From Campylobacteraceae bacterium (GTDB taxonomy: Bacteria > Campylobacterota > Campylobacteria > Campylobacterales > Sulfurovaceae), in the NCBI GenBank assembly GCA_027036015.1, contig JALVTH010000039.1, forward strand, positions 1 through 34,220: DNA of 34,220 bases, in the 5' to 3' direction. The first letter of the stretch is position 1. Each line of letters starts with the position of its first letter. The notes beneath the pieces are model-generated. The model was not told the DNA's origin. It saw nothing but the letters and a program-made list of their open reading frames with translations, and made no database searches. Made by a program: the position numbers and the translations under genes. Positions 7-17,553 of this stretch are shown in pieces.

Positions 7-36
7 AAGCTAAAGAGATTAAATCTCTTCAGCTTT
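7..36. terminator. Bidirectional terminator-like hairpin after aclA
   Basis: Two arms of about 14 bases (7-20 and 22-35) pair with one mismatch. The stem overlaps the aclA stop codon (19-21). On the plus strand it is followed by a short T run, so it could also end a rightward gene lying outside the window. Confidence 0.5.
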
Positions 37-1836
37 TTGAACGTCATATAAAATATCATCCCACGGATGGCGATACATTGGCATTGCAAGGCGTTTTTCA
101 TCTAAGATATGTCCAATAAATCCAATAGTTCTACCTAAAATGAAGAATGCATTTAAAGTTCCAGATTTAATAAACTCATCAATTTCTTTTTCTCTATAAC
201 CTAAAGCTCTCCACATATCAACCATTAAAATACCAATAGTTCCATCAACATTTAAAATCAAGTTATCTTTTTTCGCAGTTGTTTCTTTTTCTACTTCTAA
301 TGCATAATCAAGCAATGAAGTTGATGGAAAAAATTCTGCTGCATATTTTTTAAGACCTTCAACTCTTTTATCTGGATTTCTAACTGATTTAATTCTATGC
401 CCAATTCCTGGGATTGGAATGCCTTGTTTTTTCATATATGCAACAAATTCTTTTGGAGACATATTATTATCGTATGCATATTTAAAATAATACGCTGCAC
501 CATCAATCGCGCCACCAAATCTTGGTCCAATTGTAAGTAAACCAGTAACCAAGCTCTCAACTACGCTTTTCCCCGCTCTTGCAGTAACTTTTGCGTTATG
601 TGCTCCAGATACTGCTGGTCCATGGTCAGCAACGGTTTTTAATACAGTTTCAATAAAATCAACCGCCCATCTTGGATAAACTTTTTTAAACCATAGAAGA
701 CTAATGACATCACCAATAGTTTTACCAGTATCAGGTGTTGCAACTGAACTAATAGGGAACCCTGCATATGTTGCTTCTTCTCCTCTATCATCACTAATAG
801 TACAAATAAAGTTTTTCGGTCTTCTATATTTTGGAATTTCTGGAACTGCTGGCTCTTCAATTTCGCTAATAACGCCTTCTTTTTTAAGTTTGTTATATAC
901 TTCGTTAATTACTTTTGGAAGATCGTTAAAACTTGTTGGAACATGAATTCCAGCTTCTCTCATTGCCGCATTTTTAGCCTCAGCTGTTTCTCTTTCTGCA
1001 TTAGCACTTGCACCAGCATGTCCAAATTGAACGCCGCTGCTAAAATGTTTAGCAATAGTTCCAATACACCATGCAATAATTGGTTTTTTAATTTTCCCTG
1101 ATTTTACGGCTTCGATAACTTTATATTCTTCAATACCACCAACTTCACCAAGTAAAATCATATATTTAACGTCTGGATTTTGCTCCATTCTTAATAAATG
1201 ATCAATAAATACGCTTCCTACATATCTATCACCACCAATAGCAACACCTTCTGCAATTCCATCTGCATTAAGTGCAATTATGTTTGAGAGTTCGTTAAAA
1301 AGCCCTCCACTTCTTGTTACAAGACCACAGCTTCCAGGTCTGTGAAGTTTACTTTTTACAATATTTTCAATCGTTCCACCAATATTTGCTACTTTAAAAG
1401 CACCTGGACTAATTGCACCAACGGTTGCTGGACCAATAATAGTAACACCTTCTTTTCTTGCGCGATGATTCATAATTCGAGCCAATCTTTCTGGAATACC
1501 TTCGGCGGTAATCATAATAACTCTAAAACCACCAATATCAAGTGCTTCCATTGTAACATCATAAGCTGTTCTAAAAGAAGCAAAGTTTAACAAAACATCT
1601 GCATTTGGATGAGCTGCTTTTGCCTCTTTAGTGCTTCTATAAACTGGTACCATAATTTCATCGGGACCATAAAAAAACTTTTCAAATTTATTTGAACTTG
1701 TTGGAGCAACGATTGCTGCAACTGATGGCTTTTCTCTTTGAATTACATAATCGTAATCAAGCATTCTTTGAATTGCACTTTTATTATTGTTCCAAAAAAT
1801 TGCTTGCGTATCTTTTGTAAATAATCTATTTTCCAT
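19..1836 (-). CDS. aclA: ATP-citrate lyase, large (alpha) subunit AclA
   Basis: The 605-aa product is the large subunit of two-gene ATP-citrate lyase, which cleaves citrate with ATP and CoA to acetyl-CoA and oxaloacetate, a key step of the reductive TCA cycle. The N-terminal half (about 1-330) is succinyl-CoA-synthetase alpha-like: it has a Rossmann CoA-binding region and the GHAGA motif whose His273 is the expected phosphohistidine. The C-terminal part (about 340-600) is citrate-synthase-like, with PGIGHRIKS near 475. The length matches the Chlorobium-type large subunit (about 608 aa). The ATG shares one base with the aclB stop (TAATG), so the two are co-transcribed and probably translationally coupled. 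The family assignment is firm; direct use in autotrophy is inferred from the pathway. Confidence 0.97.
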   Translation of the reverse strand: MENRLFTKDTQAIFWNNNKSAIQRMLDYDYVIQREKPSVAAIVAPTSSNKFEKFFYGPDEIMVPVYRSTKEAKAAHPNADVLLNFASFRTAYDVTMEALDIGGFRVIMITAEGIPERLARIMNHRARKEGVTIIGPATVGAISPGAFKVANIGGTIENIVKSKLHRPGSCGLVTRSGGLFNELSNIIALNADGIAEGVAIGGDRYVGSVFIDHLLRMEQNPDVKYMILLGEVGGIEEYKVIEAVKSGKIKKPIIAWCIGTIAKHFSSGVQFGHAGASANAERETAEAKNAAMREAGIHVPTSFNDLPKVINEVYNKLKKEGVISEIEEPAVPEIPKYRRPKNFICTISDDRGEEATYAGFPISSVATPDTGKTIGDVISLLWFKKVYPRWAVDFIETVLKTVADHGPAVSGAHNAKVTARAGKSVVESLVTGLLTIGPRFGGAIDGAAYYFKYAYDNNMSPKEFVAYMKKQGIPIPGIGHRIKSVRNPDKRVEGLKKYAAEFFPSTSLLDYALEVEKETTAKKDNLILNVDGTIGILMVDMWRALGYREKEIDEFIKSGTLNAFFILGRTIGFIGHILDEKRLAMPMYRHPWDDILYDVQKAEEI

Positions 1837-3158
1837 TATTTGTCTCCTTTATCAGCTTCGATAGCCATTCTAACGATGTCTGTAATGTGAGTTTCTGGTC
1901 CATAAACTTCAATGTATAGCCCAAGTTTTTCTGCAGCTTCTTTAATGTCTTTTAAACCTTTTTCATAATTTGGCCCGCCGCGTCTTACGTAGATTTTTAC
2001 GTTGTGTTCTTTTAATTTATCTGCATATTTTTCAAGTGCGTTAATAATTCCAGTAAAAGTTTTAGCAACATCAGTAAAGTTTGCAATTGCCCCACCAATA
2101 ATTAAAATTTTGCCTCTTGGATCTTTATGGCGAGTCATTAAATCAAAAATAGTTTCAGCATAAAACTGTGTCTCAGCAGTAGTTGGCCCACCTGAATATT
2201 CACCATAATTTGCTAAATCTTTAACTCCTGCTAAATCAGCGATGGTATCGGCATAAACAACACTTGCTCCACCACCTGCAACCATTGTCCAAATTCTACC
2301 CATTGGATTTAAGATAGTAAGTTTAAGCGAAGCTCCACTTTTTGCATCTGCTTCTGCAATAGCTTGTTCTTCTGGAGATTTTTCTTCCATACCAAAAGGA
2401 GTTGGAAACTCAATATCTCCCCACTTATCTTTCATTAAGAAGCCTGCTGTATCATCAAGGCGCGCAACTAAATCCAAAATTGCCATTTCATTATTATCAA
2501 GCATTACAATTGGGTTAATCTCAAGGTAAGCAAAGTGCAAATCTCTAAAAAATTTATAAAATGCAAACGCAAATGCAGCAAATTCAGCTTGTTTATCTTC
2601 TGGAATTTCACTTGGAATATTGGCTTTAATTGCTTTTTCAATATCGCTGTCACTTAAATCGATTGGAATTCTAACTTCATTTACTTTATCCCAATTCTCT
2701 TCTACTTCCATACCACCTTCGGCACTAAGATACAATACATCATCTTCTCCAACGGTCGTTGCCGCAATGTAATATTCTTGATCTTGAGTATGAGGCGTAA
2801 AAGGTTCTACAATAAAATGAGTTAGTCTTCCAGTTTGTCCAGAAAGAAGGGTTATATCGTGGCTTCTTTTCTCGTCAATCCATTTTGCGGCATCTTCAAG
2901 TGTTACGTCTCCAGGCTTATTTACTTTAAATAAAACAAGGCCGTTTTTCCCTCTTTTTCCAAAAAGCATATCAGGCTTTGCAACTAAAGGCTCTTGTTTA
3001 AGCCATTCAAAACCATGCTCATTTGCTTTTTGTTTTAACTCTTCTCCACTCGTTACTAAAACTGATTTAAAAGGATAGTGGAATCCATCAAAATATTCAT
3101 TCCAATGTTTAGCAAATAGTGCTTTACCATCATATTCGCGTATTGCTCTTTGAGCCAT
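1836..3158 (-). CDS. aclB: ATP-citrate lyase, small (beta) subunit AclB
   Basis: The 440-aa product is the ATP-grasp subunit partnering AclA. The N-terminal region (about 1-240) is ATP-grasp, containing YLEINPIVM, the metal/nucleotide-site signature shared with succinyl-CoA synthetase beta. The C-terminal region (about 270-435) is the ligase/CoA-binding-type domain, with a GGGASVVYAD stretch and a GGAIANFTDV loop. The ATG at 3158 has a strong AAGGAG ribosome-binding site (3164-3170 on the complement). The gene is first in the aclB-aclA operon. An AT-rich leader of about 110 bases upstream holds a possible -10 (3187-3192), but no convincing -35. At 440 aa it is somewhat longer than the roughly 400 aa of green sulfur bacterial AclB. 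Confidence 0.96.
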   Translation of the reverse strand: MAQRAIREYDGKALFAKHWNEYFDGFHYPFKSVLVTSGEELKQKANEHGFEWLKQEPLVAKPDMLFGKRGKNGLVLFKVNKPGDVTLEDAAKWIDEKRSHDITLLSGQTGRLTHFIVEPFTPHTQDQEYYIAATTVGEDDVLYLSAEGGMEVEENWDKVNEVRIPIDLSDSDIEKAIKANIPSEIPEDKQAEFAAFAFAFYKFFRDLHFAYLEINPIVMLDNNEMAILDLVARLDDTAGFLMKDKWGDIEFPTPFGMEEKSPEEQAIAEADAKSGASLKLTILNPMGRIWTMVAGGGASVVYADTIADLAGVKDLANYGEYSGGPTTAETQFYAETIFDLMTRHKDPRGKILIIGGAIANFTDVAKTFTGIINALEKYADKLKEHNVKIYVRRGGPNYEKGLKDIKEAAEKLGLYIEVYGPETHITDIVRMAIEADKGDK

Positions 3159-5781: not shown

Positions 5782-6276
5782 ATGAAAAAAGTTATTTTTT
5801 TGATAATATTTTCTCAAGTAATTTTTGCTTTTTCTATACAAGCTCCAAATTTTGCACCAAAAGTAAATAAAAAGTTTGTTTATAACCTTTGTGGTGGGCA
5901 AAATATTTCGCCAAAGATTATAGTTAAAGATATCCCAAAAGAGGCAAAATCTTTAGCTGTTACAATATTTGACCCCGACGCTCCACGAATTGGCGGATGG
6001 TGGCACTGGGCAGCTTTTAATCTGCCAGCTGGTAATGAAATAAAAGAGGGTATAAAAGCAGATGAATTTCTACAGTTAAAAAACGATTACGGCACGTTTG
6101 GCTACGGCGGCCCATGCCCGCCTCCAGGAAAACCGCACCGTTATATAATTACAGTTTATGCACTAAAAGATAAAGTGAGCTTTTCAAAAACCATCCCTAT
6201 AAAAAAAGCTTTAGAGTTAATTAAGCCTTTAATTATTAAAAAAGCTCAAATTGTAGGAAAGTATGGAAGAAATTAA
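5782..6276 (+). CDS. Exported PEBP / YbhB-YbcL (Raf kinase inhibitor-like) family protein
   Basis: The 164-aa protein has a Sec-type signal peptide (about 1-16, MKKVIF followed by a hydrophobic core), so it should be periplasmic. The phosphatidylethanolamine-binding-protein fold is shown by DPDAP at 64-68, WWHWAAFNLP around 73-82 and GPCPPPGKPHRY at 110-121. These conserved residues line the anion-binding pocket in the family. The biochemical role of bacterial PEBPs is not settled. It has a good AAGGAG site and starts 9 bases after the Crp/Fnr gene, so the two are probably co-transcribed. Its end overlaps the convergent Uma2 gene by 4 bases, leaving no room for a separate terminator. Confidence 0.92.
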   Translation: MKKVIFLIIFSQVIFAFSIQAPNFAPKVNKKFVYNLCGGQNISPKIIVKDIPKEAKSLAVTIFDPDAPRIGGWWHWAAFNLPAGNEIKEGIKADEFLQLKNDYGTFGYGGPCPPPGKPHRYIITVYALKDKVSFSKTIPIKKALELIKPLIIKKAQIVGKYGRN

Positions 6277-6815
6277 CTCTCTGCTTCAAAAACCTCTTTT
6301 AACTCAATATTTTCTTCTAAACACTCAATTGGCAATTCATCCTCTTGTCCAAAAGCGCCGGCATATTCATATTTGCCATTTTTTAAAATAAATTTTTCAA
6401 CAATTTTATACTCAATATTAACCAAAAAATACTCTTTAATAGCGCTTTTTTCATAAAGCTCTTTTTTTACTGTTTTATCTTTAAGAGCAGTAGATGGGGA
6501 TAAAACTTCAAAAATAGCACAAGGTTTTTCATCATCTTCGCAAAAAAGCATAATATCCGGCTGAACAATATTTATTTCATTATTAACTTCAAGCTTTAAA
6601 TCATAAGGAGCAACTCTTGGTAAACACTTTTGTTTGACTTTACTAAAAGTTTTTAATAGATAAAAAATATTTCCTACAATATCTTGATGCAAAGCACTTG
6701 CTCCTGCCATCATATAAATTTTTCCAAAAATAAGCTCTACACGCTCTTTTGTTGAATTAGCAATATCAAGATAATCTTGGTAAGAGTAATTTTCTAATAC
6801 TTTAGCTTCATCCAT
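6273..6815 (-). CDS. Uma2-family (DUF820) putative restriction-endonuclease-fold protein
   Basis: The 180-aa protein matches the Uma2/DUF820 family, which has a PD-(D/E)XK nuclease fold. The core is visible: QPDIML with Asp87, FEVLSPST with Glu103, a Lys-rich KDKTVKKELYE helix, then AIKEYFLVN. The N-terminal YSYQDYLDI and ERVELIFGKIYMMAGAS are also family-typical. The biological role of these proteins is largely unknown; they are abundant in cyanobacteria and scattered elsewhere, and are often thought to be transferred genes. It lies convergent to the PEBP gene and downstream of the 622-aa gene on the same strand. It has its own likely extended -10 promoter, so it need not depend on that gene. 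Confidence 0.88.
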   Translation of the reverse strand: MDEAKVLENYSYQDYLDIANSTKERVELIFGKIYMMAGASALHQDIVGNIFYLLKTFSKVKQKCLPRVAPYDLKLEVNNEINIVQPDIMLFCEDDEKPCAIFEVLSPSTALKDKTVKKELYEKSAIKEYFLVNIEYKIVEKFILKNGKYEYAGAFGQEDELPIECLEENIELKEVFEAES

Positions 6816-6872: not shown

Positions 6873-8741
6873 TTACTTTCCATATTTTTCAAAAACAAAA
6901 TTGCTAAGCCTCTCTTTTATTCCGCTACAGTTACAATATAGAGTTTCATCTTGCAATAGATTTTTAACTTCATTAATATCTAATTTCTCTTTAGAAGCTA
7001 TAGATATACTAAATATTGTTTCACTTTGCATATAAGCTTTTGCAGTTGTATAGAGTAAAAAGATATCTTGATTAACACTATTGTTATCAAAATAAAAAAC
7101 CTGACTTTTGTTGCTTTTTGTATCTTCTGCAACAATAATAGACTGCTCTTTATTTTTTATTAAAATGCCTTTTTCTATTATATTATTTTTGTAGCTAATG
7201 GTTACGCTATTATCTTCAAAAATTATTAACAAAAGCTCCCATAATTGCTGAGTGCCTTGTGTATATAAATACCAAGTATTATAAATATTCTCTTTTTTTG
7301 CACAAATTTTACTTTGTAAATCTTGCAATTTGGTAGCTAAGTATCTAAGCTCTGCAAAAAAGCTATCAATATATTCTACAAACTCTTTATCTGTAGAGTA
7401 TTTATAGATATTTTTATAAGAGCGGTTGGGTTTGTATAAAATAAAATCTCTTTTATTGTTATAAATAAACTCATTAGTTGTATAGTTTTTATCTATTTTA
7501 TCTTTGTGTATAAAGTAGATAGTTGCAACTTTCTCTAAAATAGATAGATTTTTCTTAAATGGTTCATTAAAATTTTTTGCACAAGAGTTAGTAATAAAGA
7601 TTATCTCTATCTCTATGCTTTTTTCATTAATATTTTTTAAAAGTGCTAAAATATTATTTGCATCTTTTGAGATGTAGTTAAAGATAAAATCTTTATTATA
7701 AATTGGCATTAGCATATATAACTTTATATATCTCTCATTTCTAAAAGAGAGTAATATACTCTTAAGACCTTGATAAAAACTACTTATATAAAACTCTTGA
7801 TTATTTTTTACCTTTTCAAAAATTTTAGTAACAGAGTGAAACTGCTCTTTTGCAAGACGATATTTAATATAATTAAAATCATTTTGAACCAAAATATTAA
7901 AAAAGCTATCTATTTTAAATATCTTATCGTAATATTTTGCAAAATGTCTATTTAAAATATTGCTTTGCTCTATTTCAAAATTAAAAATATTTTCATTAGC
8001 AAAGATAATCTCGCTTTGATTAAGCGTTAAGTATAAACTGTTTAAATCACTCTCGTTTGGTTTTTGTTGATATAAAGTAACCTTTTTTGCAACAGGAATT
8101 TTTTGATTAATATCTGATATTCCTATTGCAACACCAACCAACTCTTTAGATTTACTATTTAACATCTCTAAATTAAAAATAGCCATAATTTGGTCGCTAT
8201 CGTTGCTAAATTCTAAAATCAGCTTTTGCTCTTTAGTATATATCTGCCCACTATAATACGATTTATTTGGACTTTCTATATTATATAGCTTTATCTCTTG
8301 CCTTGTAGCCGAAGGCTTACTACTGCTATAAACAATTTGAAGCTGCTTAATATTAAATTTGTTTTGACTCTCTTGAGAGTAGTATAAAAAATATTCAAAT
8401 CTAAATTCATTATATGGATTATCAATTATATTAATATAGCTATTAACTCTTTGACAAAACTCTTCCAAAGAAATCTCTAAAAACTCCTCCCCGCTTTTAA
8501 AAAGAGGCTTGCCATCAATAGCGATTGTTTTATAGAACGGATACGAAAAATACTCTTTTTTAAATGCCCTTGGCTTGTAATCTTTATTTGATTTTCTTAA
8601 CCATTTATTCTGAATATGTATAGTCCTATGCTTTTTACTGGTTCCATTTTCAAAAAGCTCAACTAAAGCAGAAAGGTTTAATTTAGCTATATTTTTGTAA
8701 ATACATTCTATTTTTTGAGTAAAATTGTAACTCTTGTTCAT
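6873..8741 (-). CDS. Unrecognised 622-aa protein with a possible duplicated beta-rich domain
   Basis: I do not recognise the family. There is no signal peptide and no membrane segment, so it is probably cytoplasmic. Three parts can be seen. An N-terminal basic stretch (about 30-65, rich in Lys/Arg with KHRTIHIQNKWLRK) is followed by a beta-rich region (about 110-250). A central alternating alpha/beta region (about 300-460) contains hydrophobic strands such as YIKLYMLMPIYN and IEIEIIFITN, Rossmann-like in character. A second beta-rich region (about 490-600) repeats the first in outline: an aromatic-rich strand, a Gly-Ile turn followed by Lys, Gln and Ile/Leu strands, and an ending with GVAIG/FLLYTT-type strands. 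It has a strong GGGGAGGAG ribosome-binding site and is divergent from the giant lipoprotein, with operator-like repeats between. A ligand-sensing regulator is possible but unproved. Confidence 0.75.
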   Translation of the reverse strand: MNKSYNFTQKIECIYKNIAKLNLSALVELFENGTSKKHRTIHIQNKWLRKSNKDYKPRAFKKEYFSYPFYKTIAIDGKPLFKSGEEFLEISLEEFCQRVNSYINIIDNPYNEFRFEYFLYYSQESQNKFNIKQLQIVYSSSKPSATRQEIKLYNIESPNKSYYSGQIYTKEQKLILEFSNDSDQIMAIFNLEMLNSKSKELVGVAIGISDINQKIPVAKKVTLYQQKPNESDLNSLYLTLNQSEIIFANENIFNFEIEQSNILNRHFAKYYDKIFKIDSFFNILVQNDFNYIKYRLAKEQFHSVTKIFEKVKNNQEFYISSFYQGLKSILLSFRNERYIKLYMLMPIYNKDFIFNYISKDANNILALLKNINEKSIEIEIIFITNSCAKNFNEPFKKNLSILEKVATIYFIHKDKIDKNYTTNEFIYNNKRDFILYKPNRSYKNIYKYSTDKEFVEYIDSFFAELRYLATKLQDLQSKICAKKENIYNTWYLYTQGTQQLWELLLIIFEDNSVTISYKNNIIEKGILIKNKEQSIIVAEDTKSNKSQVFYFDNNSVNQDIFLLYTTAKAYMQSETIFSISIASKEKLDINEVKNLLQDETLYCNCSGIKERLSNFVFEKYGK

Positions 8742-8775
8742 TTTATCTCCTCCTCCCCTAAGTAGAAAATAATTT

Positions 8776-8864
8776 ATAGATTATAAATTTTACTTCCTTA
8801 TAATCTAATAAAGCAAAGATAGATTTTATATAAGTTTTATAGATTAGTGGGATAATCTATAAAA
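8776..8864. promoter_or_regulatory. Cluster of four ATAGATTA / TAATCTAT half-sites between divergent genes
   Basis: Half-sites lie at 8776-8783 (+), 8801-8807 (-), 8839-8846 (+) and 8853-8860 (-). The second pair is part of a perfect 12-base inverted repeat (8835-8846 and 8853-8864) with a 6-base spacer. Two inverted pairs of the same word in the intergenic region of divergent genes look like binding sites for a dimeric regulator. They could instead form a transcript hairpin. Confidence 0.5.
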
Positions 8865-8878
8865 ATGCTTTAGCATTT
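8863..8878. repeat. Short perfect hairpin (7-base arms)
   Basis: AAATGCT (8863-8869) and AGCATTT (8872-8878) pair perfectly. The hairpin directly abuts the operator-like repeat and lies in the probable leader of the giant lipoprotein gene. Confidence 0.4.
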
Positions 8879-8930
8879 AATAATTATTGTCATAAAATTG
8901 TTTAAAATTGAAATTTTAGGGGGAAATTTA

Positions 8931-11900
8931 ATGTTTCGTATTTTTAAAATCTTTTTAACTGGAATCTTTTTAGTAATTTTAACAGCTTGCGGTGGGAGCA
9001 GTGGTAATGGAACATCACATAAAAATCCAGTGACTAAATTGGATAAAGAAGCACCTTATGTTCCTAAAATAGTCTCTGTTTCTTCTTTAGGTAGCGATTC
9101 AATACATATACAGTGGTTGCCTGTATCGGATAATATTACACCAGATGACAAAATTAAGTATAAAATATATGCTTCTACAACTAAAAATATTATTCCCAAC
9201 TCTGCTAATCTTAAAAAAGAATTAATAGCTACTGATGATGCAAATATTACAGGACTTAAGTCTAATACAATGTATTATATAAGAGTTGTAGCAGAAGATG
9301 AAAACAATAACACTGCTTGGAGTGAAATAGAGACTATAAAAACAAACTCTATTGATACACAAATCTCTAGTAATAAAATAGCAGAAACTAATAAAACTAT
9401 TAATTCTAATGAAACAGAAGTGGATAAAAATACTACTCAGGGTGAAATTATATTTAATGCAGACCCAAATAAAGGTTTCTTAAAAAAAGTAGAAAAAATA
9501 GAAACTAAAAATGGTAAGAAAATAGCAATTCTCAAAGATGCTACTATAGAAGATGTATATAAAAAATATGAATATAATACAAAAATAAAGCTAATCGATC
9601 CTACACATACTGTAACTACAAATAATCCAAGCAATTCACATAATAAGTTTTCTAAACTAATGAAAATAAGTTTAGGTAATAATGTTAAGTATAGCCGTGT
9701 TTGGAAAAATGGAATGATTATTACAGAAAATAAAACTGACGCGAGAGTTATTAGTAGCCCTAGTAAAAGAGCAAAACAAATTGGCTACACATACTCTAAT
9801 GATACTAAAACAGTATCAAATGATTTAGGGGAAATATCTATACCTACAAAAAACATTGTAGAGGCTGGACATGAAATTGAAATTCCTATAAAATTTAGCC
9901 AAAATTTAGATTATGAATTGAAAGTAGAAAATGATGATTATAATAACAAATGCTATGTGTATAGATGTAAAAATATAAATCCTTCTGAAGTAAAAATAGA
10001 TTCTGTAAAAATTAGTAAATTTATAAATGCAAATAATAGAAGTAGTAAACCTAGAATAAAGCTAAAGAACGGCAAATATTATTTGGTCTGGAAACCTGCA
10101 AATAGCGATGCTTCAGATGAACCGCATGAGTTTACACTTTCTGTGATTTTAGCACCTTATTATGGGCAACAAAAAATTGAGGTATATAATGAAAATATTT
10201 CTATAAAAGGGAAAATATATGTTTCTAAAGGAAAAGTAGAGCCAAGTAAAAACAAAGTTCAAAATGTAACTTTCAGTTCAAGTGCAGGATTTAAGGTAAA
10301 AAATACTTTTACAATGGGATTTGAACCTACTATATATTTATCTGAAAAGTTTGAGGATATAAAAAAAGAAGGCAATAGTAAGGATATTAAAGTTACTGGA
10401 AGTATTGTATTGAATCAAACATTAAATATAAATGCTTATGCAAATACTTCACTGGAGCAAACTAAAAATATTTGGAGTAGAGGTTTTGTAAAAGTTGTAT
10501 TTGTCGGAGAGGTTCCAGTTTTATTAAAAGGAACAATGGCAGTAGATATAAAATTTGAGGGTAGTGCAAGTGCAAATATAGATATTGTAGAGAAATTTAT
10601 AAATAAATTTGATTTAACATTAGGTTTTAATATTAATCATACAAAAGATGGTAAATACAAAATAACACCTATTAAAGAGTTTAATAAAAGTTATTCTTTA
10701 ACTATAGATGGAAAAGCAGAAGGAAAGTTATCAGCTAAAATTACTATAATTCCAGATTTAAAATTAAAAGTTTATGAATTAGTTGCTACAAGAGTTAGAT
10801 TGCTACCTTATATGTATGGTGATGTTGATATAGATGGCTTCTTTAATTATAGAAATAGTAGTAACGAAAATAGTTCATTTGATGCAGATTATAAATTTAA
10901 TAATATAGAAGCAGGTGTAGGTGCAGATTTAAGTTTATTTATAGGTCGTGGCTGGGGCAGAACATGGGTTGATGATTGGATTCAATTAACATATCCCGAA
11001 AATGCAGAAGTAGATGATGTATCTACACATAAAATTTTTCATATAGTAAAACAGACACCATTAATTAAATTACCGACATTAAGTAGTAGTTATGATATAT
11101 CAAAATTGCCTCCTAAAAATATTGATAACAGAGCAATTTGGATAAAAGGAAATTATAGTAATGAAAGTGGAGTAATAGAGACTTCTAAATTTAAGTCTTG
11201 GGATAAAGCAAAAATTGTAAATAACGAGAATCTAGATGCCCAAATTATAAAAAGTAATACTGATGGCGGATATTGGTTAATCCCTGGGAAAGAGGGAGAG
11301 TATAATATAAGATTAATAGGTCATTCTAAATTAGGAAGATGGGCAAGACAATATACAACAGTAACTTTTGCATTGAACGATGATAATAACAATGGCATAT
11401 TAGATTATTGGGAAAATAGGTATCCTAAACCTGCTAATATGCCTGAAGAGTTATACTTAAAAGCTTTTCAAAATGGTGAAGATCCAAAAACTATAAAAAT
11501 AGAAGATCCTGCAAAAGAAGATGATAATCAAAACCATAAACCTAATATAGATATTAAAGTATCTAAACATTTAGTTTATGAAGGAGAAGAAGTTACATTA
11601 GATGCATCTAATAGTAGTGATAAAGATGGCGATAATTTAACATTTGAGTGGAGTGATGCCGAATATTGGTTAGGAAATAAACCGATTATAAAAAAGAAGT
11701 TTAAAAAAGGTGTTCATAAAATTAAATTAGTTGTATCTGATGGTAAAGATAAATCTAGCAAAACAGTTGTTGTTTTAGTAAAAAGAAAAATAAAAGAAAA
11801 TACTAATAAAGCAATTGTAGATGGTGTTAGTCCAACTGTTGCTTACGAAGATAAACCAACAGTGTTTACTATTACAGGTTCTAATCTGGATAGTAATATA

Positions 11901-14900
11901 AGTGGTTATTTAACTAATAGTAATGATTGTAAAAAAATATCTTCAACAAAAGAGAATATTAAAATTTCTTGCACACCTAAATTAAATGGAAGTAATTCGA
12001 CATATAAAAACTTTATTATTACCAATTATGATGGGGAAAAGTTATATAAGATATATATTAAGAGAAATAATGTAGTAGAATATCAGGGTTCCACTAAGCC
12101 TTATGATACGTGTCACTCTTTCTATGAAAAAGGATGCGAAGCTACTGCTCTGCCTGATAAAAGTTATACAAAAAGCTGGACTTTCAAAAAATCAACAAAT
12201 AAGAAATTTAAAAACTTAAGAGTAGTTGCTATAAATGAAGATCCTAAAGTTGTTGTTCACATTGATAAAGTAGAAGAGAATAAAAATATTATTACTGTAA
12301 CAATGACGTTAACTGTTTCTAAAGATGCTATTGGAATTCATAAAGGAAACTTTAAACTAGTGGATGAGTATGGAGATATTGTTTATAAAGCTACAGGAAG
12401 AAGCTCATATTTTTGGTATATGCTAAATGTTCAGCCAGAATTGCCTAAGACAATAACTTTAAATAAAATAGAAGACGGCGTAGAAGGCGATGTATTTACA
12501 TTTAAAGCTCAATTATCTGATTCTTTAGATAATGCTTATAGCGTAAAATTGAGTCTTGGCGATGGCAGTGGTGGTTGGTTGAAACCGATTGATATGATTG
12601 CAAATAATAATAGAACACTATTCGCATTAGCCAAAAAAATAACTACAGCAGGTGATAGAGTTTATCGTGTAGCTATTTTTAATGGTAACACTAGAATATC
12701 TGATTGGATACAAGGCAGTTATAAAGTTTATGAAAAATCTAAAATTCCTAAAAATGTAAAAGTTAGGGAAAATAATGATGGTTCTGTTACTGTCCAATGG
12801 GATCCTGTAAAAGATGCACCATCTTATACGCTTATGTATTCACTTGATGGTGCATATTATGGTAATTACAAAACAATCAAAAATATTAAAGAAACCTATT
12901 ATACATTTAATAGTGACACTTTTTTAGATAATGAAATAGTTTATTTTTCTGTCGGTGTTACAGGAGGAAAACAATCTGAAAAAGTAAGTATTATTTATAA
13001 AAAAAATAATAATATATATTATAATAATCTTGCAGGTAAAACTTTATATGCTTTAACTAAATATAATATAGTAGAGTTTAATTTTAATAAAGATTTAACC
13101 AGTTTTATTGTTGATTCAAATGAAACGATTACAATAAAAACTAAACTTGACAATAATGGTCTAAAATTATTAGGTAAAAAAAATTATTACTTAATTATCA
13201 AGAAAGTTAATCAAAACTATTTAGATGTAGAATATGATGAGTTAAGCGACAGTGGTGCAATTATTAAAACAGAGAAGAAATTTAAACTATATTTTGACGA
13301 AAAAGATGTTCCTATAATTACTGGTGATTTAGCTAAGATAATTGTAGGTAAAACATTCTATCAGCATTGTAAAGATGATAGCGGCAATGTAGGAATAGAT
13401 AGTATAACTTTCCAAAGAGACGGTAAAATTAAAATAGAAGAACATAATGGAAACACTTTCTATATTGAATACACAATTAACGATAATGTAATTACAACAA
13501 AAGAAAAAGATGATAATGAATATAAAACTCATACATTTGTAAAAGAGACTAATGAATATATACAGTTAAATGAAGAGAATGGAGAAGTTACAAAGCTATA
13601 TAAAACATATCAGGCAGCACAAAATGCACCGGTAGATGATTGCGGCGGGGATGATGGAGAAACAGAATACAATCCTAGAGGAAAAATAACTTACTTGGGA
13701 GCAGATTATCAAATTGTTAAAGCTCATTCTTATATGTCTAATATGGACAACAATGAAGTTCAAATTTTTCTTCAAACAGATAAAAATAATCCTCATGCAA
13801 AAGGAGGATTGCAATTTACTTTAAAGAAAAGTTTTGCAAAAGATAATGAAAGTTTCAAATCTCTTTTACGGAACAAAAAAATATTGTATATAAATAGAAA
13901 CAATATAATAGATTATGGTATTCAGTTTATGGCAAAAAACAACACTCCTACTGGTGTTACTTGGAGAAGTGGTAGCATAAAATTAATATGGCAAAGAGAT
14001 AATATATTTACAATAGAACAAAATGGAGCCTCTTTAGGCATAAAAGATTTTGAAAATAATGCAATAAATATGATTTATTTTACTAAAACTTATATTCAAT
14101 GGACAGATAAAAATTATAAAAATAATGATCCTGAAGAAAAAGTAAGTGGATTGGTTTCTGGGCATGTTGATTTTAGCGATTATGGCTATGTTCCTTCTGA
14201 TGCTTGGGTTGGAATTACACCTTTAAGATTCCAAAATGATGCTTCTGGATGGAATAGGCTTACTTGTAAAATAGATTCAAATGGTAATTTTGGAAATGAA
14301 TGTTACATAGATCATAATGTACAAGGAATGAAGCAAGCACTACAAGATAGAAATGAAAAATTCCAAGTAGTAGTATTCAAAAATACAAAAGAACCTGAAA
14401 AACATGATTGGAATGGTGGCGAAGATGTATATAAATATGTTGGAAGTGAAGAAGATTATGGAAGTTGGAAAAGTATAAAAGTTAATAAAGAAGATTATCA
14501 AGATAGAAGTGATGAAAAAGATACAGATAGTGATTCTAAAAAAGTTTCAGACCTTGTTTCTGGTCATTTTAATTTTGTAGATGAAAATGGTAGCAAAGTA
14601 TCTATCCCATCTAATCTTTGGGTTAGAATTACTCCGCAGGAGTATCAAGTAGAAGGTCACTGGACTGGGGTTAATTGTAAAATAGACAGCAATGGCAACT
14701 TTGGCAATGAATGCTATATACACCGTTCAGAAGAAGAGATGCGTAGTAAATTTAATAGTAATCATAAAGGAACTTATCAGGTAGTAATTTATCAAGAGAC
14801 TACTGGTGATACACATTATAACAGAGAAGAAGAAGGTTTTGCATGTATAAATAACTGCGAGGATGTTCGATACAACGCTTGGAAAAATGCTACTGCGAGA

Positions 14901-15206
14901 GTTTTTAATAACAGTGGAGGACACTCAAGTTCTGATAATACTCCAGTAGATCCAAATTTAACAGTATCTATTAGCTTATCGGGCAATACTTTGACAGCAA
15001 TTTTTAATAAAGATATGGAACATACTTATAGTGTAAGAGGGGTAGGTAACTATCATATATCTAGAAGTTATTGGGTTAATGATAAAATATTTAAGATGGA
15101 TTTTGATTATTATGATAGTAATGTAACCATAAGATTGGAAGCATCAGGTTTTATTACTAAAGAAGGTAAAAGATTATCAGAAGATGTTACTTTTACATTT
15201 CCATAA
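8931..15206 (+). CDS. Giant multidomain surface lipoprotein (about 2,091 aa)
   Basis: The product has a lipoprotein signal peptide ending LTAC, with Cys20 as the lipidation site. Visible domains by residue: fibronectin type III-like (about 41-139); a long beta-rich region (about 150-800) of unrecognised type; a Ca-binding-like loop DDNNNG (about 817); a PKD-like domain (about 871-953) with DASNSSDKDGD; an IPT/TIG-like domain (about 961-1046); a second fibronectin type III domain (about 1272-1359); lipocalin-like strands (about 1368-1560); a tandem pair of about 120-aa modules (from 1737 and 1871); and a C-terminal Ig-like domain (about 2010-2091). An upstream TTG at 8898 is possible, but AGGGGG at 8918-8923 supports ATG 8931. 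This architecture suggests a surface-exposed adhesive or carbohydrate-binding protein. No catalytic motif was recognised. Confidence 0.88.
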   Translation: MFRIFKIFLTGIFLVILTACGGSSGNGTSHKNPVTKLDKEAPYVPKIVSVSSLGSDSIHIQWLPVSDNITPDDKIKYKIYASTTKNIIPNSANLKKELIATDDANITGLKSNTMYYIRVVAEDENNNTAWSEIETIKTNSIDTQISSNKIAETNKTINSNETEVDKNTTQGEIIFNADPNKGFLKKVEKIETKNGKKIAILKDATIEDVYKKYEYNTKIKLIDPTHTVTTNNPSNSHNKFSKLMKISLGNNVKYSRVWKNGMIITENKTDARVISSPSKRAKQIGYTYSNDTKTVSNDLGEISIPTKNIVEAGHEIEIPIKFSQNLDYELKVENDDYNNKCYVYRCKNINPSEVKIDSVKISKFINANNRSSKPRIKLKNGKYYLVWKPANSDASDEPHEFTLSVILAPYYGQQKIEVYNENISIKGKIYVSKGKVEPSKNKVQNVTFSSSAGFKVKNTFTMGFEPTIYLSEKFEDIKKEGNSKDIKVTGSIVLNQTLNINAYANTSLEQTKNIWSRGFVKVVFVGEVPVLLKGTMAVDIKFEGSASANIDIVEKFINKFDLTLGFNINHTKDGKYKITPIKEFNKSYSLTIDGKAEGKLSAKITIIPDLKLKVYELVATRVRLLPYMYGDVDIDGFFNYRNSSNENSSFDADYKFNNIEAGVGADLSLFIGRGWGRTWVDDWIQLTYPENAEVDDVSTHKIFHIVKQTPLIKLPTLSSSYDISKLPPKNIDNRAIWIKGNYSNESGVIETSKFKSWDKAKIVNNENLDAQIIKSNTDGGYWLIPGKEGEYNIRLIGHSKLGRWARQYTTVTFALNDDNNNGILDYWENRYPKPANMPEELYLKAFQNGEDPKTIKIEDPAKEDDNQNHKPNIDIKVSKHLVYEGEEVTLDASNSSDKDGDNLTFEWSDAEYWLGNKPIIKKKFKKGVHKIKLVVSDGKDKSSKTVVVLVKRKIKENTNKAIVDGVSPTVAYEDKPTVFTITGSNLDSNISGYLTNSNDCKKISSTKENIKISCTPKLNGSNSTYKNFIITNYDGEKLYKIYIKRNNVVEYQGSTKPYDTCHSFYEKGCEATALPDKSYTKSWTFKKSTNKKFKNLRVVAINEDPKVVVHIDKVEENKNIITVTMTLTVSKDAIGIHKGNFKLVDEYGDIVYKATGRSSYFWYMLNVQPELPKTITLNKIEDGVEGDVFTFKAQLSDSLDNAYSVKLSLGDGSGGWLKPIDMIANNNRTLFALAKKITTAGDRVYRVAIFNGNTRISDWIQGSYKVYEKSKIPKNVKVRENNDGSVTVQWDPVKDAPSYTLMYSLDGAYYGNYKTIKNIKETYYTFNSDTFLDNEIVYFSVGVTGGKQSEKVSIIYKKNNNIYYNNLAGKTLYALTKYNIVEFNFNKDLTSFIVDSNETITIKTKLDNNGLKLLGKKNYYLIIKKVNQNYLDVEYDELSDSGAIIKTEKKFKLYFDEKDVPIITGDLAKIIVGKTFYQHCKDDSGNVGIDSITFQRDGKIKIEEHNGNTFYIEYTINDNVITTKEKDDNEYKTHTFVKETNEYIQLNEENGEVTKLYKTYQAAQNAPVDDCGGDDGETEYNPRGKITYLGADYQIVKAHSYMSNMDNNEVQIFLQTDKNNPHAKGGLQFTLKKSFAKDNESFKSLLRNKKILYINRNNIIDYGIQFMAKNNTPTGVTWRSGSIKLIWQRDNIFTIEQNGASLGIKDFENNAINMIYFTKTYIQWTDKNYKNNDPEEKVSGLVSGHVDFSDYGYVPSDAWVGITPLRFQNDASGWNRLTCKIDSNGNFGNECYIDHNVQGMKQALQDRNEKFQVVVFKNTKEPEKHDWNGGEDVYKYVGSEEDYGSWKSIKVNKEDYQDRSDEKDTDSDSKKVSDLVSGHFNFVDENGSKVSIPSNLWVRITPQEYQVEGHWTGVNCKIDSNGNFGNECYIHRSEEEMRSKFNSNHKGTYQVVIYQETTGDTHYNREEEGFACINNCEDVRYNAWKNATARVFNNSGGHSSSDNTPVDPNLTVSISLSGNTLTAIFNKDMEHTYSVRGVGNYHISRSYWVNDKIFKMDFDYYDSNVTIRLEASGFITKEGKRLSEDVTFTFP
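14139..14924 (+). repeat. Tandem protein module encoded in the giant lipoprotein
   Basis: Two copies begin at 14139 (residue 1737) and 14541 (residue 1871). Both open with KVS-x-LVSGH and share the identical 15-residue stretch CKIDSNGNFGNECYI. Both then carry a QVV-strand and end near a Trp-Lys (SWKS / AWKN) segment. The nucleotide sequences differ at many third positions, so the duplication is not recent. Confidence 0.85.
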
Positions 15207-15843: not shown

Positions 15844-16710
15844 ATGAGAAATTCAATTCTATTAATTATAAGTTCATTATTCATTTTTAATGGTTGTTTG
15901 CAAGAAAACTTTCAGAATGGTTATTTACAAGCTTCAACTAAAAATAAACTTGAAAAACTGGATTATAAAGAGTGGCGTAATTTACTTTCAGGTAATACAG
16001 TAATACTAAATAGGGGTTCAAATAAAATTATTTGGCTCCTAAGTGAAAAAAGCTCTAATTTTCATGATGATGCAATAGAGATTAATGTAAACAAAAAAAC
16101 TGTTATAGATACTGTATGGGGAAAATGTGCCGGTTATGATTCTTATCTTTGTCTTGGGAGTGCTCATGGACCATTAAAAAATTTTTCAAATTACTATTTT
16201 GTAAACTCTGATAAAACAAAATTTTATTTTATTAATGATAATCAAAGATATGTTTTTCATATAATCAAAGGATGGCCTAAAAAATATATTCAATTAAGCA
16301 AGTCTCCAGACTATAAACATATAAAAAATAAACAAGAAGGTCTGGGAGGTATATTAGTAAATATAATAGCAAATACTTTAAGAAATATCAAACAAGATAA
16401 TTATACAAATTCACATAAAAATATCCACATTTGTAAACCACCTCTTCCTGCACCGTATGAAACTACTGAATGTAATAATGCACAAACTTCAAGTGGTAAA
16501 CTTGCTACAATTAAATTGAGACGAGCAGGTAAAAGTATAATAGATGGTAAAGCTAATTGCTTTGATTTATATATTTATACTTCAAATGGCTTTGGCAGTG
16601 GCAATACTTGTGATGGAATTAATGGAAATTGGTCAATAATAGTTAATGGACAAACTAGAGCAATAAGTGGATTTGATAATGCTATTACTTGGGTTTTAGA
16701 AAAATTATAA
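15844..16710 (+). CDS. Unrecognised lipoprotein (288 aa)
   Basis: An AGGAG site lies 7 bases before the ATG. The N-terminus is a lipoprotein signal (MRNSILLIISSLFIFNGC) with Cys18 as the probable lipidated residue, so it is membrane-anchored outside the cytoplasm. The mature protein has several cysteines (WGKCAGYDSYLCLG, HICKPPLP, TECNN, ANCFDLY, NTCDG), which suggests disulfides. The C-terminal 70 residues are beta-rich and Gly/Asn-rich and end with a Trp-containing helix (AITWVLEKL). I see no enzyme motif and do not recognise the family. It is flanked by the small secreted protein and the transposase unit. Together with the giant lipoprotein, three exported proteins lie in a row on this strand. 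Confidence 0.7.
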   Translation: MRNSILLIISSLFIFNGCLQENFQNGYLQASTKNKLEKLDYKEWRNLLSGNTVILNRGSNKIIWLLSEKSSNFHDDAIEINVNKKTVIDTVWGKCAGYDSYLCLGSAHGPLKNFSNYYFVNSDKTKFYFINDNQRYVFHIIKGWPKKYIQLSKSPDYKHIKNKQEGLGGILVNIIANTLRNIKQDNYTNSHKNIHICKPPLPAPYETTECNNAQTSSGKLATIKLRRAGKSIIDGKANCFDLYIYTSNGFGSGNTCDGINGNWSIIVNGQTRAISGFDNAITWVLEKL

Positions 16711-16763: not shown

Positions 16764-16771
16764 GTTATAAT
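16764..16771 (+). promoter_or_regulatory. Candidate -10 of the transposase gene
   Basis: The bases read TGTTATAAT-like (TATAAT 16766-16771) inside the element, just after the left repeat and about 20 bases before the ATG. The resulting leader would be very short, with the ribosome-binding site at 16777-16783. Confidence 0.35.
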
Positions 16772-16791
16772 TGTTAAAAAAGGATTTTTCA

Positions 16792-17553
16792 ATGCCAAGA
16801 AAGCCTCGTATAGAGTTGGCTGGGTTTCATCATGTTATTAACCGCGGGGTAAATGGAAATAACATTTTTAAAGAAGCCAGTGATTATGATACTTTTTTGA
16901 AAATTGTTTGTAAAGCTTGTAGGCAGTATCAAGTTGTTTTGCACGATTACTGTTTGATGGGCAACCATTTTCATCTTTTGGTTGAAACAAAATTAAGAAA
17001 TCTTTCTCTTTTTATGAAACATATAAACTCTAACTATGCAATTTTTGCCAATAAAAAATATAACCGTTCGGGGCATTTTTGGCAAGGGAGGTTTTATTCC
17101 CGTTATGTTGCCAGTGAAAATTACTACTATACTTTAATACGATATATTGAACAAAATCCAATAACTGCAGGAGTAGCAAAAAAAGTTGGAGAATATCCAT
17201 ATACACTAGCTTCGGTAATTATAAACAAAAAAACTCCCGCCCCTTGCACAATAGAATCTAAACTGTTAAAAGAGTTAAAATATGAAAATATTCAAGAGAT
17301 AATTGGTGCTAAACTAAGAGATGATGAGTTGGATTTTTTAGAAGAGCTTAAAAAACAAAAAAGTGTAACTGTTAATAAAACAAATAAATTAGCTTTTAGT
17401 AAAACTTTAAAAGAGCATTTTCAAAACCAAGATAGAGATAAAGCAATAATCTCTGCATTAAAGGATGGATATACTCAAGCCCAGATTGCAAAATATCTTA
17501 ATGTTTCGAGGTCTTTGGTTTGTAAGATTGTTAAAAAGATGCAAGAGAAGTAA
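16792..17553 (+). CDS. REP-associated tyrosine transposase-like protein (Y1/HUH transposase)
   Basis: The 253-aa protein belongs to the Y1_Tnp (IS200/RAYT) family of HUH single-strand transposases. It has the opening MPRKPRIELAGFHHVINRGVN-type strand, the metal-binding HxH as His59 and His61 in GNHFHLLVE, and the catalytic tyrosine in RYIEQNP (Tyr118). A C-terminal extension carries a helix-turn-helix (about 222-250, QIAKYLNVSRSLVCKI), common in RAYTs. An in-frame TTG at 16771 is upstream, but AAAAAGGA (16777-16783) points to ATG 16792. All catalytic residues are present and the frame is open, so it could be active. Its stop codon lies within the right inverted repeat. Confidence 0.9.
   Translation: MPRKPRIELAGFHHVINRGVNGNNIFKEASDYDTFLKIVCKACRQYQVVLHDYCLMGNHFHLLVETKLRNLSLFMKHINSNYAIFANKKYNRSGHFWQGRFYSRYVASENYYYTLIRYIEQNPITAGVAKKVGEYPYTLASVIINKKTPAPCTIESKLLKELKYENIQEIIGAKLRDDELDFLEELKKQKSVTVNKTNKLAFSKTLKEHFQNQDRDKAIISALKDGYTQAQIAKYLNVSRSLVCKIVKKMQEK

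Follow-up and report, generated by a model that had tools for sequence, protein, structure and literature searches.

The window, by which we mean the whole 34,220-nucleotide stretch of DNA analysed, carries on its minus strand a gene for the protein P0001. It lies head-to-head with a gene for a giant lipoprotein, across an intergenic gap at positions 8742-8930 (Table 1). The first-pass annotation had listed P0001 as an unrecognised 622-aa protein, and that description held. The ORF is real and lies on the minus strand, while translation of the same interval on the plus strand is interrupted by many stops. P0001 had no match in Pfam-A (none at E 10), NCBIfam, PHROGs or PADLOC. Comparison with PDB sequences gave no meaningful match and a PDB profile search was likewise negative, so that the statement "no known family" is true at the sequence level. 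No membrane-spanning hydrophobic stretch was predicted, with the top 19-residue hydropathy mean reaching 0.89.

The divergent lipoprotein has an N-terminal lipobox (LTAC). The ORF caller placed its start at TTG 8898, compared with the ATG given in Table 1. By eye, two stretches encoded within 12900-13700 (starting AGKTLYALTK and VGKTFYQHCK) have the look of lipocalin-type beta domains. Other genes of the window were also read by eye. Another exported lipoprotein-like gene lies downstream of the lipoprotein (15844-16710), and it is followed by a gene resembling a REP-associated tyrosine transposase (16771-17553). Two genes at 19-3158 resemble subunits of ATP-citrate lyase, which is consistent with a reverse-TCA autotroph.

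Table 1. Features of the P0001 locus (positions are those of the window)
Feature	Position	Strand	Basis or remark
P0001 CDS	6873..8741	minus	ATG start, stop included, 622 aa; probable one-component transcription regulator
Helical N-terminal domain, residues 1-106, probable XRE-like HTH	8424..8741	minus	AF2 helices and alignments
Barrel 1, predicted lipocalin-like, residues 112-241	8019..8408	minus	AF2: eight strands 117-224 and helix 230-241
Phospholipase-D-like alpha/beta domain, TrmB-like, residues 316-470	7332..7796	minus	Foldseek; HxKxxxxD motif absent
Barrel 2, duplicate of barrel 1, residues 486-596	6954..7286	minus	AF2: eight strands 486-583 and helix 589-596
Uma2-family (PF05685) protein	6273..6815	minus	E 7e-25; directly downstream of P0001, same strand
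Giant lipoprotein (fn3, PKD domains), proposed target	8931..15206	plus	ATG 8931 after AGGGGG ribosome-binding-like site
Perfect palindrome TTTTATAGATTA-GTGGGA-TAATCTATAAAA, candidate operator	8835..8864	strandless	two TTTATAGATTA copies
Palindrome AATTTATA-GAT-TATAAATT, second candidate operator	8771..8789	strandless	contains third TTTATAGATTA

Structural models were generated with AF2 from five sequences (P0001 and four relatives), and both are of moderate confidence. The full-length model had a mean pLDDT of 65.6 and a pTM of 0.36; much of the central domain and of the second barrel scored higher, at roughly 70-89. A model of residues 1-262 had a pLDDT of 65.8 and a pTM of 0.50. The predicted order of domains is HTH, lipocalin-like barrel, inactive PLD-like domain and lipocalin-like barrel, which is probably a new architecture.

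Within the N-terminal domain, helices were predicted at residues 3-28, 36-47, 57-66, 84-89 and 92-106. Alignments revealed a recognition-like helix, R-[KR]-x-[TV]-[VIL]-x-x-W-[LI], that is conserved in most members of the family and leads into a turn with a proline. A classical HTH has a shorter loop between helices 2 and 3 than this domain, and no HTH family model of Pfam or NCBIfam matched the domain. Its profile showed weak similarity to the HTH of short members (E 0.016 over 28 columns). Two relatives (L075 and L133) have a more ordinary HTH preceding the barrel; the Pfam HTH matches of L075 were weak and below cut-off, as were all HTH family matches of the short relatives. The N-terminus of P0001 is probably an HTH and the DNA-binding head of the protein. 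As the domain itself matches no HTH model, this step is one that we infer from the predicted helices and the alignments.

The two beta-rich regions of P0001 had been proposed to represent an internal duplication. Rather than unrelated folds, the AF2 models (whole protein and residues 1-262) assigned to both regions eight strands and a C-terminal helix in identical order. The barrels are thus predicted to adopt an eight-stranded, up-and-down, lipocalin-like (calycin) fold. Foldseek searches with the model of residues 1-262 returned mostly lipocalins or designed barrels among the good matches (probability up to 1.00, best E 4.4e-3), and the barrel of Cap15 also appeared in the list of hits (7n35, TMt 0.52). 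No Pfam match to the lipocalin family proper was obtained for P0001.

Profile-profile alignment of barrel 1 with barrel 2 gave a score of 24.0 over 71 columns, compared with 13.4 for the reversed control, and this score was reached by none of 200 block shuffles. Predicted strands 4 to 8 are displaced between the two barrels by the same ~360 residues as the alignment. As sequences were added, the E-value improved from 0.029 to 0.0023 (probability 12%). Barrel t1 of the three-barrel relative L133 provided a decisive intermediate, with E-values of 1.7e-5 against barrel 1 and 9.5e-8 against barrel 2, while the HTH-region and PLD-like-region profiles gave 0.3-0.9 in the same comparison. The barrel of the short members is clearly homologous to barrel 2 of P0001 (profile E 1.4e-27). 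Second barrels start with G-x-W in most relatives, and with N-T-W in P0001.

The region between the barrels had been described as a Rossmann-like core. This reading was dropped, since Foldseek favours a phospholipase-D-like alpha/beta fold. Searching the whole model against 350,542 PDB chains yielded TrmB as the best match (3qph, E 2.5e-5, prob 1.00), followed by TrmBL2 (5bpd, 9.1e-5) and then by PLD3 and other PLDs. A conserved HxKxxxxD motif was absent from 29 full or partial relatives, which contained two isolated matches to the pattern, neither of them at a conserved position. The central domain probably serves in ligand binding or dimerisation.

Two other readings of these domains have to be weighed. 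The barrels could be convergent, non-homologous eight-stranded folds, as small barrels are a common fold and the direct similarity of the two sequences is weak. We regard this as very improbable, given that the alignment register coincides with the strand offset, that the score exceeds all shuffles, that the L133 barrel matches both profiles and that some relatives carry two or three barrels in tandem. Predicted fold, profile register and intermediate sequences together support homology of barrels 1 and 2 through duplication. Alternatively, the PLD-like domain could be an active phosphodiesterase or nuclease and P0001 an enzyme, in keeping with the fold matches (prob 1.00) to PLDs, PLD3 among them. 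However, no member has the conserved HxKxxxxD motif and the best match, TrmB, is non-enzymatic. We therefore set this reading aside as almost certainly wrong.

A single-sequence scan of the genome contigs for relatives of P0001 returned none, while a scan with a closer alignment returned four. A full-length paralogue (38% identity) is present in the same genome as P0001. Within the family, a profile search identified relatives in 35 of the 175 genomes covered (4 of 11 genera). Outside the family, two samples of 397 genomes, drawn from the class and from the phylum, contained none, and none were found in viral contigs, phages and plasmids. Two candidates (L006 and L008) were set aside as chance matches, with L008 sitting inside an asparaginase gene. 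Those relatives that have a name are MAGs, for example Nitratifractor sp. S142_10, and Nitratifractor belongs to Sulfurovaceae; on our own reading of isolate names, they come from hydrothermal vents. So far, the family is known from Sulfurovaceae-type vent bacteria only.

Members differ in architecture. Some are full length as P0001 is, others comprise ~480 aa without the second barrel, and one (L073, 466 aa) has both barrels but is missing the central domain. Short members, consisting of an HTH and one barrel, are many and often occur several per cluster. L075 combines an HTH with two barrels, and L133 an HTH with three.

The arrangement seen in the window recurs among these relatives. Among full-length or near-full-length members, 25 had an upstream gene that could be read, and 24 of these were head-to-head with it. 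The paralogue in the same genome is not divergent from its neighbour. After members were collected into independent groups, drawn by eye from partner sequences, 9 of 10 were divergent against a background of 61 of 276 (22%; p 1.7e-5), the background being neighbours taken from the same loci. Partners were exported or membrane proteins in 7 of 10 groups compared with 20 of 276 (p 3e-6), as judged by a simple home-made signal-peptide rule. The partners themselves vary, and include the fn3/PKD lipoprotein of P0001, DUF4214/PKD and Ig-like surface proteins, an 1832-aa surface protein and a TerC/DUF475 membrane protein. No homologue of the second half of the giant lipoprotein was found in 60 relatives, and a conserved lipoprotein partner was rejected on this ground. 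For the same reason, the putative regulator family seems to be paired with unrelated cargo.

Other neighbours were observed around the short members and elsewhere. Short HTH-barrel genes immediately precede TPR-CHAT (caspase-like) genes in L024 (7674-10465), L028 (4969-7750), L056 (13360-17482), L057 (7760-11855), L058 (2317-6442) and L074 (2328-5492). These TPR-CHAT clusters are conserved, with signal peptides on some of the CHAT proteins and with metacaspase-like lipoproteins and outer membrane proteins nearby. Uma2-family (DUF820) genes occur beside or near members at four loci (the window, L058 7759-8295, L064 4712-5248 and L133 1142-1702). By eye, AAA-ATPase-like genes (AAA-ATPase_like/PDDEXK_9 type) are next to or near members in L021/L079, L025, L027 and L018 (14916-15401), and such genes seem abundant in this bacterial family.

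Repeats shared between P0001 and the lipoprotein had been noted before, and they are real in one sense. TTTATAGATTA occurs three times in the gap (0.15 expected per window), with two of the copies within a perfect palindrome that has no other copy in the genome allowing up to 3 mismatches. Genome-wide, TTTATAGATTA occurs 8 times in 1.69 Mb. A genome-wide regulon was rejected, as the other five copies are mostly inside genes. Read by eye, a -10-like TATAAT (minus strand, 8785-8780) located 38 bp before the P0001 start overlaps the second palindrome, and a scan revealed no good -35.

Comparable repeats were present in gaps of relatives. In about ten genomes (L023 6808-7800, L066, L109-L115 and L120), the 480-aa member is head-to-head with a TerC/DUF475 membrane protein and is a candidate for regulating this family of membrane proteins, which is poorly understood. 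The gaps of the ten TerC-linked orthologous loci have diverged apart from the promoter and from AACTTT repeats, which are 10-bp phased and occupy two places, one close to the TerC gene and the other immediately past the -10 of the putative regulator. Among the candidate operators, these repeats are the best conserved. AACTTT was counted 46 times (9.7 expected, highest shuffle 22) and GAAATTT, in a second orthologue group, 17 times (2.1 expected), with both counts inflated by orthologues that are not independent. Direct repeats of 10-11 bp were moderately enriched across all members relative to control upstream regions (p 7e-4; 9e-3 minus orthologues).

Our data suggest that P0001 is likely a cytosolic one-component regulator that controls itself and the divergent surface lipoprotein. 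That it acts as a regulator or sensor of this surface protein had been put forward in the first-pass annotation. The idea gained from the probable HTH, the TrmB-like PLD domain and the lipocalin-like barrels, and further from the recurrence of head-to-head placement across non-orthologous loci and from operator-like palindromes and tandem repeats. Under the proposed mechanism, P0001 would bind as a dimer to the palindromic TTTATAGATTA sites in the gap common with the lipoprotein gene, where it would repress its own promoter and control that of the lipoprotein. The barrels and the PLD-like domain would sense a small molecule and/or dimerise. Binding of a small ligand by one or both barrels and/or by the PLD-like domain may alter DNA binding, and the analogy to lipocalins/VtrC and TrmB would point to a ligand resembling a lipid or a sugar. 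HTH function, DNA binding, the ligand and the direction of control are parts of the mechanism that we infer from the predicted domains and the arrangement of the locus.

The candidate operators could belong to another regulator, which would weigh against this model. P0001 might instead assist the exported neighbour from the cytosol, as its partner or chaperone, or bind RNA, with the palindromes being sites of an unrelated factor. Such a role would agree with the lack of a formal HTH family match, with the mostly exported partners and with the binding of lipids or hydrophobic cargo by many lipocalin-like folds. We nevertheless judge it unlikely. The partners are unrelated in sequence, which is easier to reconcile with a promoter regulator than with a dedicated chaperone, and the genes are placed head-to-head rather than co-transcribed. 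In addition, the palindromes are local and unique, without a genome-wide regulon. Distinctly improbable, in our view, is a conflict or programmed-death system in which the barrels would sense a phage or stress signal (e.g. a cyclic nucleotide, like the Cap15 barrel) and the neighbours would be effectors (TPR-CHAT, caspase-like, Uma2 and AAA-ATPase/nuclease-like). In several loci, short HTH-barrel members do adjoin genes of the TPR-CHAT and C14 caspase-like kinds, Uma2 genes are beside or near members in four, and Cap15 was among the barrel matches. However, PADLOC gave no match for the family and one weak AbiTi match on a neighbour, and relatives are absent from viral contigs, phages and plasmids. 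The partners of full-length members are instead surface proteins, exported proteins or membrane proteins of the TerC type, and several of the CHAT neighbours have signal peptides. Even a conflict system would remain regulation by an HTH protein.

Returning to P0001 as a regulator, a broader proposal can be advanced with much less assurance. The family may consist of modular, lineage-specific regulators whose intracellular ligand sensors are lipocalin-like barrels, one to three per protein, accompanied by a dead PLD domain in some members and not in others. Copies would be wired singly to a fast-changing set of surface lipoproteins, membrane proteins and secreted caspase-like (TPR-CHAT) proteins that are unrelated to one another, and the operator would have diverged from pair to pair. 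If true, each surface gene of these vent bacteria would have a dedicated local switch. For P0001 itself, the regulator reading, if true, would add a one-component architecture absent from the family libraries and literature searched; a limited literature search found no paper on an HTH with cytosolic lipocalin-like barrels. Lipocalin-like barrels would then serve as duplicated sensor modules in the cytosol. The operator sequences and divergent targets would offer a handle on how Sulfurovaceae-type vent bacteria control giant, species-specific surface proteins.

TrmB is a sugar-responsive regulator composed of an HTH and a PLD-like domain. As in the TrmB family (3qph, 5bpd), P0001 is predicted to join an HTH domain to a non-catalytic PLD-like effector domain, and it has a candidate palindromic operator. 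Palindromic sites are known for the TrmB family, and some members are autoregulated (PMC4158304). Unlike that family, P0001 has no PF01978 in its N-terminal domain and no Pfam match to PF11495, adds a lipocalin-like barrel on either side of the PLD-like domain, and occurs in bacterial Sulfurovaceae-type rather than archaeal hosts. Its central domain shares the alpha/beta fold of the phospholipase D superfamily (PLD3 and bacterial PLD), but is single and lacks the HKD catalytic motif. With lipocalins and calycin-like barrels, including MoaF-like proteins and the Cap15 receptor barrel, P0001 shares an up-and-down barrel that is predicted to have eight strands and a helix after them. In contrast to lipocalins, the barrels of the P0001 family are predicted to be cytosolic, are fused to an HTH in one to three copies, and show no sequence match to lipocalin families. 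P0001 would work in a similar way to TrmB and VtrA/VtrC. Since the TrmB domain models are unmatched and P0001 has no membrane or periplasmic part, it is a member of neither the TrmB family nor the VtrA/VtrC group. Even so, VtrA/VtrC and ToxR/ToxS likewise couple an eight-stranded lipocalin-like sensor, of the VtrC type, to an HTH regulator (PMC9214523). Whereas those systems use a separate periplasmic sensor and a membrane-spanning regulator, P0001 would place both functions in one chain with no membrane segment, in which two copies of the barrel flank a PLD-like domain.
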